A DNA stretch of 64,000 nucleotides, taken from Maricaulis maris. Lineage in GTDB: Bacteria > Pseudomonadota > Alphaproteobacteria > Caulobacterales > Maricaulaceae. Positions 5,011-50,384 of the stretch are shown here, piece by piece (positions within the stretch are counted from its first letter, which is position 1; each line of letters starts with the position of its first letter). Under the pieces are notes generated by a model. That model searched no databases, had not been told where the DNA came from, and saw only the letters and a list, made by a program, of their open reading frames with translations. The DNA is taken from positions 2,481,501 to 2,545,500 of the forward strand of contig NZ_AP027270.1 in the NCBI RefSeq assembly GCF_036322705.1, in the 5' to 3' direction. The position numbers were made by a program, and so were the translations under genes.

Positions 5011-5964
5011 TCAGTGGTGGCCGGCGCTGGCCGGTTCGGCGGCCGCGTGCTGGTCCGCCGGAGCATGGTGCTCCTGGACGGCGGCAGGCGATGGCGCTGC
5101 ATGCAAACCGGATGCTTCACCTCCGTGTTCCGCGGGTGAGGCATGGTCAGCGAGCGTGGTGTGATCTGTGGCGACCGCCTCGGGCATGTGCGCGCCGGGA
5201 GCGGCATGGGTATCGCCTTGCGGCGCGTGATCCGGCGTCTCGTCGTGCGCGCCAGCGGGCACATTGCCGTGTGCCGGCAAATCCATCAGCACCACTTCAA
5301 CTTCGACGGCCTCGGGTGGCGGATCGGAGACGACCGTGCGGAAGTCCTGCCGACGCCCGGCGCCGATCCGGCCGGCCGGCATCGAGATCGTCCATTCGAG
5401 GACGGCTTCGCCACGCTCATCGCGGAGGATCGCGCGAAGTCCGGGGATCGCCCGGGCGCGGCGGTCAAAATTATGGACATCGCCTTCGACAACCAGCAGC
5501 GGCACGCCGTGGTCGACCTCGCGGCTGACCTCGAGCTCACCGACGTCAAAGCCCCATGGATTCACCGAGGTTCCGATCGCTGCATAGGCCGAGGAGGCCC
5601 GCGGCCACAGGGTGACAATATCAACGCGGAAGATCCACGCGCAGACAAAGAGAACGGTACAAGCCGCCAGCAGTCCGCCCCAGGCACCGCCGGCAGCGGC
5701 GGCGGACAGGGTCCGGCGTTTCTTTTCCTGGCGCTCGCGGAAGGCGGTATGGACCTTCTTGTCACCGCCCGGCTCCTCGGTCGGAGCGTCCGGCTTGACC
5801 GGCGGAGCCGGTTGCAGGCTTGGCAGATCGCTGGGATCCTCGACCTCTGCGGTCCAGACATGACCGCAGGATGCGCAGCGCACGCGTCGACCATTCGTGC
5901 CAATCGCATTGGGATTGGCACGGTAACGCGTGGTACATGACGGACAGCTGAGTACTATGCTCAT
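5011..5964 (-). CDS. MJ0042-type zinc-ribbon protein with DUF3426 domain and His-rich tail
   Basis: The 317-aa protein begins with a zinc ribbon: CPSC at residues 7-10 and CASC at about 30-33. A charged linker leads to one membrane helix near residues 95-115, then a DUF3426-like extracytoplasmic domain. The last 80 or so residues are low-complexity, rich in Ala, His, Pro and Glu, with many single and paired histidines and a final HH. Zinc-ribbon/DUF3426 proteins are common in Alphaproteobacteria and often neighbour ftsEX as here; their function is not established. The start is 82 bp from ftsE, in the divergent orientation. The His-rich tail may bind metal, which is inference. Confidence 0.85.
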   Translation of the reverse strand: MSIVLSCPSCTTRYRANPNAIGTNGRRVRCASCGHVWTAEVEDPSDLPSLQPAPPVKPDAPTEEPGGDKKVHTAFRERQEKKRRTLSAAAAGGAWGGLLAACTVLFVCAWIFRVDIVTLWPRASSAYAAIGTSVNPWGFDVGELEVSREVDHGVPLLVVEGDVHNFDRRARAIPGLRAILRDERGEAVLEWTISMPAGRIGAGRRQDFRTVVSDPPPEAVEVEVVLMDLPAHGNVPAGAHDETPDHAPQGDTHAAPGAHMPEAVATDHTTLADHASPAEHGGEASGLHAAPSPAAVQEHHAPADQHAAAEPASAGHH

Positions 5965-6046
5965 ATGAGTCGTCTACACATCTTCTTCGGCTCACCCGGT
6001 TCCATGGAGAATTTCCATCGTTTCGAGTTCATCCCAGTCGCCGCAC

Positions 6047-6892
6047 ATGGACCCGGAGCCGGTTATCCGCTTCGACAATGTCGGTATGCGGTATGGCCGG
6101 GGACCGGAAGTCCTGAGCGATTTGTCTTTTGATTTACCACGCGGTTCTTTCCAATTCCTCACCGGACCGTCCGGAGCCGGCAAAACCTCGCTGCTGCGAC
6201 TGATCTATCTCGCCGCCAAGCCGTCGCGCGGGCTGATCAGCTATTTCGGCCGCGACGCCGCGACCCTGCCGCGCAATGAATTGCCGGATCTGCGTCGCCG
6301 CGTCGGCGTCGTGTTCCAGGAGTTCCGCCTGCTTGGCCACATGAATGTCTTCGACAATGTCGCCCTGCCCCTGCGCGTCGCCGGGCGCAAGCGGCAGGAC
6401 TATGCCGAGGATGTGGCCGAACTGCTGGCCTGGGTCGGCCTGGGCGACAAGATGAATGCCCTGCCGGCGACCCTGTCCGGCGGCGAGCAACAGCGCGTCG
6501 CGATCGCCCGCGCTGTGGTCGGGCAGCCCGAAGTGCTGATCGCGGACGAACCGACCGGCAATGTCGACCCGGAAATGGGCATGCGTCTGCTGCGCCTGTT
6601 CGCCGAGCTCAACAAGCTGGGCACCACCATCATCATAGCGACCCACGACCTGCAACTGGTCCGCATGCTGGATGCGCCGGTGATGACGCTCTCGAACGGA
6701 CATCTCCATATCCGTCCGCCCCGCAGTGAGCGCCTGCGGATGCGTGAAGAAGCGGAAGCGGAGGCCGACCGTGTTGCCGCAGCCCCGGCCGCGGCCGCGC
6801 CGCGCAGCAACGAGACGCGCGACGGTGATGACACAACCCGTCACCCCGTCGCAGAGCCCGGCGACAGCGACAGCGGAGGCGGCGATGACTGA
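6047..6892 (+). CDS. ftsE: Cell division ABC transporter ATP-binding protein FtsE
   Basis: ATPase partner of FtsX at the septum; the complex couples ATP hydrolysis to activation of periplasmic cell-wall hydrolases. Visible motifs are Walker A GPSGAGKT (residues 40-47), the signature LSGGEQQRVAIARA (from about 143) and Walker B VLIADEPTG (from about 163). At 281 aa it is roughly 55 residues longer than typical FtsE. The extra C-terminal part is Arg/Glu/Ala-rich, then Asp/Gly-rich, and lies where the ftsX start overlaps. Its TGA overlaps the ftsX start region, indicating translational coupling. Confidence 0.96.
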   Translation: MDPEPVIRFDNVGMRYGRGPEVLSDLSFDLPRGSFQFLTGPSGAGKTSLLRLIYLAAKPSRGLISYFGRDAATLPRNELPDLRRRVGVVFQEFRLLGHMNVFDNVALPLRVAGRKRQDYAEDVAELLAWVGLGDKMNALPATLSGGEQQRVAIARAVVGQPEVLIADEPTGNVDPEMGMRLLRLFAELNKLGTTIIIATHDLQLVRMLDAPVMTLSNGHLHIRPPRSERLRMREEAEAEADRVAAAPAAAAPRSNETRDGDDTTRHPVAEPGDSDSGGGDD

Positions 6893-48479: not shown

Positions 48480-48529
48480 ATGAGAATGGATTGCATTGTC
48501 ACAATATACCATCTGCACATCATTCTCAT
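48480..48529. promoter_or_regulatory. Long-spaced inverted repeat, possible operator pair
   Basis: ATGAGAATG at 48480-48488 and its exact reverse complement CATTCTCAT at 48521-48529 are 32 bp apart. Each arm resembles half of a Fur-type iron box (ATGAGAATGAT-like), so this could be two oppositely facing operator half-sites. It lies in the AT-rich region between ruvC and the repeat-protein genes. The regulator is a guess. Confidence 0.4.
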
Positions 48530-48696
48530 AGTCATAGCTAATAAGAATTACTCTCAATATCTCCCGCAACCCGCTGATTAAAAAGCGAAAAAAAATAGCC
48601 CGAATTGTTTGCCAGTCATCCGACCGCCGCATAAGCTAAACGTAATTCTGGCAGAGCTACATTGTGTAGCGCGCATTCTAAGGGGGAATTTGACAC

Positions 48697-49038
48697 ATGG
48701 CCAAAAAAGGCAAGCTGAGCCGCCGCTCCTTCCTGACCCGCGTCGCGGGCGGAACGATTGCTGCAGGTGCTGTGGCAACGGTCGCTGGCGCGGCAGTCAT
48801 TCAGCGGAACTCGGACGCAGACCCGGCCGATAGCGGCGGTCGCGCCCGTACGGGCAACACGGATAGCGATCCGAACGATTACGCGAACCACGGCGTTCGC
48901 CGCACCGGTCGCACTGACAGCGACAGCGGCTCCTGCGCCGACCAGGCGGGTTATGGCCGCGGCAACACCGGCTACACCGACAGCGACAGCTCCGGCTGTT
49001 CCGACCCCGGTGGTCGTGGTCGCGGACCGAGCCTCTAA
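48697..49038 (+). CDS. Tat-exported TDSD-repeat protein A (shortest paralog)
   Basis: The 113-aa protein starts with a Tat signal: GKLSRRSFLTRVAG (residues 5-18) followed by a moderately hydrophobic Ala/Gly stretch to about residue 35, with a possible cleavage site near AAVIQ. The mature part is hydrophilic and holds three repeats beginning with TDSD at residues 55, 73 and 94, each followed by a Gly-Arg-rich stretch, plus a degenerate Asp-rich lead-in. Two cysteines (80 and 101) lie at equivalent places inside the second and third repeats. It is the first of three tandem paralogs. I recognise no family beyond the signal peptide. Confidence 0.82.
   Translation: MAKKGKLSRRSFLTRVAGGTIAAGAVATVAGAAVIQRNSDADPADSGGRARTGNTDSDPNDYANHGVRRTGRTDSDSGSCADQAGYGRGNTGYTDSDSSGCSDPGGRGRGPSL
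48850..49026 (+). repeat. Three TDSD repeats of paralog A
   Basis: About 54-63 bp per unit, encoding TGNTDSDPNDYANHG, TGRTDSDSGSCADQAGYGRG and TGYTDSDSSGCSDPGGRGRG. The first unit is degenerate. Units align with those of the two neighbouring genes. Confidence 0.85.
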
Positions 49039-49046
49039 GACTTCAG

Positions 49047-49070
49047 CGACGGCGCCTTCGGGCGCCGTCG
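49047..49070 (+). other. Perfect hairpin with TTCG tetraloop between paralogs A and B
   Basis: Arms 49047-49056 and 49061-49070 form a perfect 10-bp GC-rich stem closed by TTCG, a very stable RNA tetraloop. No T-run follows, so it is more likely an mRNA-stability element or partial terminator 8 bp after the first gene than a full intrinsic terminator. Confidence 0.7.
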
Positions 49071-49096
49071 TCATATCTCGAGCGTGAGGGACGACA

Positions 49097-49117
49097 GGTA
49101 ATTCTTGGGGGATTACC
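49097..49117. promoter_or_regulatory. Inverted repeat in the leader of paralog B
   Basis: GGTAAT (49097-49102) and ATTACC (49112-49117) are separated by 9 bp including a G-run. It lies 23-43 bp before the ATG at 49140 and may be a small operator or leader hairpin for the second repeat gene. Confidence 0.35.
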
Positions 49118-49139
49118 GACACGACTATGAGGTAGTTAC

Positions 49140-49700
49140 ATGGCCAAAAAGGGCAAACTCAGCCGGCGCTCCTTTCTGACTCGCGTCGCGGGAACCGCGA
49201 TTGCGACCGGCGCAGCCGCCACTGTCACGGGCGGCGCTATCGCCCAGAACTATACGGGCCGAACAGATAGCGACACAGGCAGCTATGCAGACCGCAGCGG
49301 CTATGGCCGCACGGGCGCAACAGATAGCGATTCAGGCCGCAATTCGGACCGCGCCGGCTATGGCCGGGGCAGCACAGGCGTGACCGACAGCGACACCGGC
49401 TCCTATGCAGACCGGGCTGGCAATGGTCGCGGGCGCTCGGGCATCACTGACAGCGACACGGGCACATATTCCGATCCAGCCGGCAATGGCCGCGGACGCC
49501 GCACCACGGGTATCACCGACAGCGATACCGGCTCCTATGCCGATGCCGTCGGCAATGGGCGCGGGCGTTCCGGCATTACCGACAGCGATACCGGCGCCTA
49601 TGCCGACCCGGCCGGCAATGGCCGTGGTCGTCGCTCATGCACAGACAGCGACACCGGTGCCTATGCTGACGCCGTAGGCCGTGGCGATCGCTGCCGCTGA
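49140..49700 (+). CDS. Tat-exported TDSD-repeat protein B
   Basis: The 186-aa paralog has the same Tat start as A (MAKKGKLSRRSFLTRVAG, residues 1-18) and a predicted cleavage site near GAIA-Q (about residue 36). The mature protein is seven repeats with TDSD at residues 42, 61, 82, 103, 127, 147 and 168; the usual unit is TDSDTGxYAD-x-x-G-x-GRGR. The last unit differs: it is bounded by Cys167 and Cys185 and ends the protein. There is almost no hydrophobic residue and no lysine after the signal. GAGGT lies 6 nt before the ATG. The regular Asp spacing suggests metal, perhaps calcium, binding, which is inference. No known family is recognised. Confidence 0.85.
   Translation: MAKKGKLSRRSFLTRVAGTAIATGAAATVTGGAIAQNYTGRTDSDTGSYADRSGYGRTGATDSDSGRNSDRAGYGRGSTGVTDSDTGSYADRAGNGRGRSGITDSDTGTYSDPAGNGRGRRTTGITDSDTGSYADAVGNGRGRSGITDSDTGAYADPAGNGRGRRSCTDSDTGAYADAVGRGDRCR
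49254..49697 (+). repeat. Seven TDSD repeats of paralog B
   Basis: Units of 57-72 bp (mostly 63) encode the consensus G-[ATIV]-T-D-S-D-T-G-x-Y-A-D-x-x-G-x-G-R-G. Synonymous differences between units show they are not a very recent expansion. The last unit is the Cys-flanked cap. Confidence 0.9.
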
Positions 49701-49758
49701 CACCAGGCCCGATAGTCGGTCGTCTCGGCCGACATCGCCCCTGCACATGGAGGCCTGA

Positions 49759-50322
49759 ATGGCCCAACGCGGAAAACTCTCCCGTCGTTCTTTTTTGACC
49801 CGGGTCGCCGGCGCGGCGGTTGTGACCGGCGCTGCCGGCACAGTCGCCGGGTGCGCGACAACCGGCTACACTGATAGTGATATTGGTCGCTATGCGGACC
49901 CGACCGGTGCCGGCCGCGGCGGCAGCGGCGGATATGGCAGTACCGGCGCGACCGACAGTGATACCGGTCGCTATGCCGACCCCGTCGGCAACGGGCGTGG
50001 CGGCGGCTATACCGATGCTGATTCCGGTCGCTATGCCGACCCGGTCGGCGGTGGACGCGGCGGCGGCATCACCGATGCTGATACTGGGGCCTACTCTGAC
50101 CCGGCCGGGCGCGGCCGCGGCAGCTCTGGCATTACGGACAGCGACACCGGATCCTACTCCGACCCTGTCGGGCGCGGCCGCGGTGGTAGCCGCCGAGGCG
50201 CAACGGATAGTGACAGTGGCCGCTATGCGGACCCGGTTGGCGGGGGGCGCGGCAGCCGGTCCTGCACCGACAGCGATACCGGCAGCTATGCCGATCCCGT
50301 CGGTGGCGGCCGGCGCTGCTGA
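49759..50322 (+). CDS. Tat-exported TDSD-repeat lipoprotein C
   Basis: The 187-aa paralog begins MAQRGKLSRRSFLTRVAG and ends its signal with a lipobox VAGC (Cys32), so it is predicted to be a Tat-exported lipoprotein, unlike B. Seven repeats start at residues 38, 65, 85, 105, 126, 149 and 170, most reading TDSDTGRYADPVGxGRGG; two carry TDAD. The last unit is bounded by Cys169 and Cys187 and is almost the same as the terminal unit of B. GGAGG lies 5 nt before the ATG. An intrinsic terminator follows at 50355-50384. Function unknown; the lipid anchor may tether the family to the membrane. Confidence 0.85.
   Translation: MAQRGKLSRRSFLTRVAGAAVVTGAAGTVAGCATTGYTDSDIGRYADPTGAGRGGSGGYGSTGATDSDTGRYADPVGNGRGGGYTDADSGRYADPVGGGRGGGITDADTGAYSDPAGRGRGSSGITDSDTGSYSDPVGRGRGGSRRGATDSDSGRYADPVGGGRGSRSCTDSDTGSYADPVGGGRRC
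49864..50319 (+). repeat. Seven TDSD repeats of paralog C
   Basis: Units of 60-81 bp encode the same consensus as in paralog B but are Pro-Val-richer (YADPVGxGRGG). The first unit has a longer Gly/Ser linker. The terminal unit is Cys-flanked. Confidence 0.9.
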
Positions 50323-50354: not shown

Positions 50355-50384
50355 AAACCCCTGCGACCCGTCGTGGGGGTTTTT
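50355..50384 (+). terminator. Intrinsic terminator after the repeat-protein genes
   Basis: A stem pairs 50355-50366 with 50371-50382 (two G-T pairs) and ends in five T at 50380-50384. It lies 33 bp after the stop of paralog C and should separate that transcript from the oxygenase gene. Confidence 0.85.

Follow-up and report, generated by a model that had tools for sequence, protein, structure and literature searches.

Introduction

Known JmjC_2 (PF08007) relatives whose substrates have been tested modify His or Arg (PMC6006756). NO66 (RIOX1) and MINA53 (RIOX2), which are the best full-length sequence and fold matches of the PF08007 enzyme described here and share its Fe and 2OG ligands, have the ribosomal proteins uL2 and uL15 as substrates (PMC6006756), whereas the partners linked to the Maricaulis oxygenase are exported repeat proteins. 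The arginyl hydroxylase YcfD/RoxA, of the same family and overall architecture (Z about 19) but merely 13-15% identical to our enzyme, hydroxylates Arg81 of L16 (PMC4295552). JmjC-type hydroxylases of ribosomal peptides are also known already, since BipG (PMC12707348) and PbsQ (PMC12257519), both JmjC or cupin-like enzymes, hydroxylate RiPPs of the biphenomycin type, and a 2025 survey describes bacterial JmjC relatives of PF08007 proteins in RiPP-like contexts (PMC12710340). BipG and PbsQ resemble the present case in that a JmjC-type hydroxylase is paired with a ribosomal peptide encoded nearby (here a proposed substrate), but they differ in having an ornithine target, a short core and several other enzymes, with neither Tat export nor repeat arrays. 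Bufferins are reportedly metallophores of ribosomal origin that MNIO enzymes modify (Leprevost et al. 2024, cited in PMC12710340). They share with our proposal the idea of an oxidised, exported ribosomal chain that binds metal, metal binding by the chains described here being itself proposed; the enzyme family and the chain sequence differ.

Here we analyse a locus within a 64,000-nucleotide stretch of a Maricaulis genome (the window), where three genes for putative Tat-exported repeat proteins are linked to the gene of a JmjC_2 oxygenase. A literature search for the TDxD motif and for JmjC enzymes with Tat repeats, covering mainly journals open without subscription, found no description of such a system, and the Tat-exported repeat-chain partner of JmjC_2 is apparently new.

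Three tandem genes encode repeat proteins with a putative Tat signal

The host genome is a single contig of 3.14 Mb whose nearest named relatives are Maricaulis. Three tandem open reading frames on the + strand (Table 1) encode proteins with identical Tat signal cores (GKLSRRSFLTRVAG) followed by three, seven and seven TDxD units, and this three-gene pattern is far beyond chance. Reading of the frames and counting of the units thus agreed with the preliminary description, which had reported three adjacent paralogs with a shared core and these copy numbers. Its statement that the mature regions have almost no hydrophobic residues was likewise borne out by composition: the mature parts lack Glu, Lys, Phe, Met and Trp and hold one Leu altogether, and the charged residues of the repeat region are Asp and Arg. 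The repeat unit of about 21 residues that it proposed is a real form but not a fixed one, because either 5 or 2 residues separate the second Asp from the third; the typical distance between repeats is 19-26 residues. Comparison of the 15 full-length units gave 934 differences at third codon positions, 380 at first and 334 at second positions, the pattern of genes under selection at the protein level, and this excess together with orthologues in dozens of genomes shows that the frames are coding.

All three proteins carry SRRSFL ahead of a hydrophobic stretch, and RRx[FLIVM] lies close to the N-terminus in 132 of the 139 unique relatives. The NCBIfam Tat profiles matched the window proteins weakly and under their cut-off. 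The conserved motif supports the Tat signal proposed earlier and, with it, export of the repeat proteins by Tat. The lipobox Cys of protein 3 (VAGC) is present in its aligned orthologues, which suggests that this protein is a putative Tat lipoprotein. At one related locus (L131), the otherwise typical Tat signals of two repeat proteins read KRSFL instead of RRSFL.

Table 1. Coordinates of the features discussed (window positions unless a locus is named)
Feature	Position	Strand	Remarks
Fur-like half-sites, weaker	about 48481-48495, 48514-48528		read by eye
Fur-like box TAAGAATTACTCTCA	48542..48556	+	141 bp upstream of first repeat gene
Repeat protein 1, 113 aa	48697..49038	+	Tat signal, 3 TDxD units
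Strong hairpin (GCGACGGCGCC-UUCG-GGCGCCGUCGU)	49046..49071	+	after gene 1; z -2.9
Repeat protein 2, 186 aa	49140..49700	+	Tat signal, AIA-Q type cleavage region (by eye), 7 units
Repeat protein 3, 187 aa	49759..50322	+	Tat signal, lipobox VAGC, 7 units; two Cys frame last unit
Terminator-like hairpin, then U run	50355..50384	+	between gene 3 and oxygenase; z -2.0
JmjC_2 Fe(II)/2OG oxygenase, 394 aa	50476..51660	+	PF08007; 153 bp after repeat gene 3
Small peptides beside remote JmjC_2	L150:2050-2199, L154:2295-2432, L156:2288-2425, L157:2027-2167, L087:3240-3455		

Three aspartates define the repeat unit across relatives

The 139 unique repeat proteins contain 879 units, in arrays of 2-18 copies, with the consensus [TS]-D-x-D, a gap, and D-x-x-G-x-G, followed by Arg in 822 units. 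Second and third Asp are separated by 5 residues in 718 units and by 2 in 159, and Tyr occurs in just 475 of the gaps. In the 744 units retrieved with a search pattern that demanded GxGR, Asp was kept at the three positions in 742, 743 and 744 cases; homologues with conserved Asp, whose lack would have counted against the preliminary description, thus exist. The repeats of the relatives are rich in Gly, Arg, Tyr and Ser, with 0.18% Glu and 0.10% Lys. Shorter unit variants, such as TDSDPTDAPGQGR (L110) and TDNDSTDRSGQGRN (L076), also adjoin JmjC genes of the repeat-linked group described below, and the putative substrate beside the JmjC gene of locus L093, SDYDPNDPIGGGSDTDPVDPIGEG, has neither Arg nor Tyr, so that its unit SDYDPNDPIGGGS lacks the Arg after GxG.

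In scans of the three repeat proteins, Pfam gave no match at E up to 1, and no repeat family of NCBIfam was matched. At the same Pfam threshold no profile of the calcium-binding EF-hand, RTX or TSP3 repeats was matched, and the TDxD units, with a gap of 5 or 2, depart from the constant spacing of metal ligands in such families, which argues against a single rigid site of the EF-hand or RTX kind. As far as the databases and the literature could be searched, the family is therefore undescribed, as the preliminary description had supposed. A match of the L076 variant to suprabasin (E 1.2e-6) lay under the family cut-off and was taken as low-complexity noise. AlphaFold modelled a repeat protein with a pLDDT of 39; small beta bridges recur at TDxD in this model, with very low confidence.

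A JmjC_2 oxygenase gene is linked to the repeat genes

The operon extends past the three-gene family: the preliminary description had recognised the repeats but overlooked an oxygenase gene that follows the third of them after 153 bp. The genome encodes no JmjC_2 other than this protein, which scored 97.9 bits against PF08007 (curated cut-off, 22). By alignment with NO66, its Fe ligands are H146, D148 and H209 and its 2OG-binding residue is K161, all four invariant in 28 of 28 relatives. NO66 and MINA53 are its closest solved relatives: the AlphaFold model (pLDDT 93) matched NO66 with Z 31, MINA53 with Z 30 and YcfD with Z 19, and aligned to NO66 across residues 3-394, thereby comprising the double-stranded beta-helix, dimerisation and winged-helix domains.

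Among 84,980 species genomes searched, relatives of the repeats were retrieved at 46 loci, and a JmjC_2 gene adjoins the repeats in 40 of them; five of the six remaining genomes carry a JmjC of the same group elsewhere, beside other repeat genes. These loci are phylogenetically related, so that the counts of linkage are not independent. In an even sample of 337 Alphaproteobacteria, repeats were present in 10 genomes and any JmjC_2 in 61, and all ten repeat-bearing genomes had a JmjC_2 no more than about 1 kb away from a repeat gene; the chance of this co-occurrence, calculated by hand, is ~2e-8 under an independence of genomes that does not hold. A sample of the phylum gave matches in Alphaproteobacteria only, adding three genomes, in each of which the one JmjC_2 present adjoins a repeat gene. 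Among the 98 JmjC_2 sequences placed in a tree, repeats adjoin 79 of the 81 members of one group (support 97/95), the two exceptions lying at contig ends, but none of the 17 sequences outside it. Among 23 diverse loci only the repeats and JmjC were common to nearly all, the next most frequent being ruv genes and their neighbours (8/23), and no further widely conserved neighbour was seen; the pair persists in varied gene order with varied neighbours. No transporter, protease or receptor gene was linked to the repeat-JmjC loci, and where a repeat gene has no JmjC close by, its neighbours offered no clue to function. All in all, repeats and oxygenase form a linked pair, arranged like a RiPP precursor gene beside the gene of its modifying enzyme.

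Fur-like boxes precede the operon in Maricaulaceae

The Fur-like box upstream of the first repeat gene is one of seven places in the genome within 2 mismatches of TGAGAATNATTCTCA; the reversed control has none. Of the remaining places, two are located between a TonB receptor gene and a DUF6607 gene and one precedes a solute-binding-protein ABC transporter; the genome encodes a Fur protein, so that the operon shares a box-like palindrome with iron-uptake genes in a host that has the regulator. The region before the operon was enriched in Fur-like boxes in 23 Maricaulaceae-type loci compared with shuffles, with a combined p-value that overstates the effect because a second consensus was picked after the data had been seen and because the loci share ancestry. 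The Hyphobacterium-type loci L012, L014 and L017 have a perfect Fur box of the classical form, TGATAATGATTATCA. These findings suggest that the Maricaulaceae operon is probably repressed by Fur, and point to a role in iron or metal handling. No Fur-like box was found upstream of the sphingomonad and rhodobacterial loci, which indicates that iron control is not universal. Two hairpins may adjust expression within the operon: the strong one after gene 1 is a possible attenuator or mRNA stabiliser, and the terminator-like one after gene 3 could lower the amount of enzyme relative to its putative substrates.

Discussion

We consider it likely that the locus is a substrate-modifier pair, in which the JmjC_2 enzyme oxidises the repeats before these are exported by Tat. 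In Maricaulaceae the operon would be transcribed under Fur control, so that the chains are made when iron is scarce. Low-complexity and probably disordered chains of the form [TS]DxD-(2 or 5)-DxxGxGR would be synthesised in the cytoplasm, where the NO66-like enzyme would oxidise each unit with Fe(II), 2OG and O2, most likely by beta-hydroxylation of one Asp per unit. The finished chains would then leave via Tat, proteins 1 and 2 being released or kept in the periplasm and protein 3 anchored by lipid, and may bind iron or another metal. Gene linkage, conservation and upstream boxes lead us to infer an action of the enzyme on the repeats, Asp as its target, modification ahead of export and an involvement of iron or metal. 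The linked oxygenase offers a better reason for the use of Tat than the preliminary description had, namely that the chain must remain in the cytoplasm until it is modified; because the repeat region is not confidently folded, Tat may serve here to permit modification in the cytoplasm and not for the transport of a folded domain.

Since the DxD...D element is common to all putative substrates, Asp is favoured as the residue most likely oxidised. The main alternative is Arg, which follows GxG in most units and is, along with His, the residue modified by those family members whose activity has been tested. With that change, the same pair would produce beta-hydroxy-arginine at GxGR, and the exported chains would make up a surface matrix, elastic or adhesive, instead of binding metal. 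Such a role would suit the composition of the chains, which resembles that of phase-separating or resilin-like proteins, their poorly predicted structure, and the activity of YcfD on an Arg. We nevertheless regard it as a minority possibility, albeit a substantial one, because the L093 protein has no Arg after GxG, a remote Streptomyces peptide has neither Arg nor GxG in its core, and a matrix protein would not be expected under Fur-like control. Oxidative cross-linking in place of hydroxylation is possible as well; a JACS paper of 2025 is said to describe 2OG-dependent macrocyclisation in RiPPs. A more specific version of the Asp proposal, in which the Asp of every unit becomes beta-hydroxyaspartate and the Fur-controlled, Tat-exported chains are polymeric, ribosomally made iron binders, partly anchored as lipoproteins, is speculative and on balance rather unlikely. 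If true, the chains would be a protein counterpart of a siderophore, beta-hydroxyaspartate being a siderophore ligand.

Three other explanations set aside either the intact chain or the modification. Arrays of 2-18 units might be multi-core precursors, cut after export into small modified peptides that act in signalling or as antibacterials; remote JmjC_2 relatives in Streptomyces and Nostoc do adjoin precursor-like peptides of 45-49 aa, but the linkage of neither a protease nor a peptide transporter, and the kept lipobox of protein 3, which suggests an intact anchored chain, make this improbable. On the idea of the preliminary description, the spaced Asp would stay unmodified and take up a divalent ion (Ca2+ or another) while the chain is still in the cytoplasm, the loaded array then being exported. 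The invariance of D-x-D and of the third Asp, and the tentative beta bridges at TDxD, would fit this. The variable spacing of the third Asp and the missing Pfam repeat match argue against it, however, as does the low concentration of free Ca2+ in the cytoplasm, and it leaves the oxygenase unexplained; we give it little credence. Least credible is that the enzyme, as an ordinary ribosomal oxygenase, has a ribosomal protein for its substrate and that its place beside the repeats is functionless inherited synteny. It is the sole JmjC_2 of its genome and has the fold of the ribosomal oxygenases, but the pair is kept in different orders with different neighbours, at distances where gene order is mostly lost, and the other JmjC_2 proteins of the same class never accompany repeats. 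Genome linkage thus points to a substrate other than a ribosomal protein.

The substrate-modifier reading would provide a likely non-ribosomal substrate for a bacterial branch of the NO66/MINA53/YcfD family, and hints at a reason for the use of Tat by some small hydrophilic chains, namely a need for prior oxidation in the cytoplasm. The repeats themselves define an undescribed family of exported, Asp-rich proteins in many Alphaproteobacteria. If the Fur link holds, a protein-based route of iron or metal handling would be added for marine and freshwater bacteria.

Related genes elsewhere

A remote JmjC protein of Streptomyces clavuligerus (35% identical) is preceded by a 48-aa peptide that ends in IADNDPSDPPIAIADPDPFDPVI and contains two DxDPxDP motifs (ADNDPSDP and ADPDPFDP), with a motif core free of Arg, Tyr and Gly and little else in common with the repeat units. 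Remote JmjC_2 genes of Streptomyces, Nostoc and one alphaproteobacterium adjoin peptides of 45-71 aa (Table 1), those of Streptomyces ending in SDGND and adjoining an aldo/keto reductase gene. These loci look like an undescribed RiPP-like group.

One contig filed as an Anaerolineae MAG (L045, JANQQD010000318.1) carries repeats near-identical to those of the alphaproteobacterial locus L046 and is probably misbinned. A repeat gene of a rhodobacterial genome is preceded by a reading frame rich in His and Asp (L161:1-1300) that contains TDSDAAPAHSTDSDTSHPAPAHDRD; this frame may represent a relative with His or else a shadow frame. The host genome holds two further repeat genes outside the window. 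One, with a Tat signal (G000:C1:984963-985295; locus L004, and L007 at about 5964-6296 on the - strand), has an in-frame TAG within its first unit and may be a pseudogene or reflect a sequencing error. The other (L008:5884-6432, - strand), distant from any JmjC gene, encodes a fifth repeat protein, of 182 aa, with a charged, coiled-coil-like C-terminal tail, ENARIRAENRRVEEENRRIRAMERQRDQLETEMQ.
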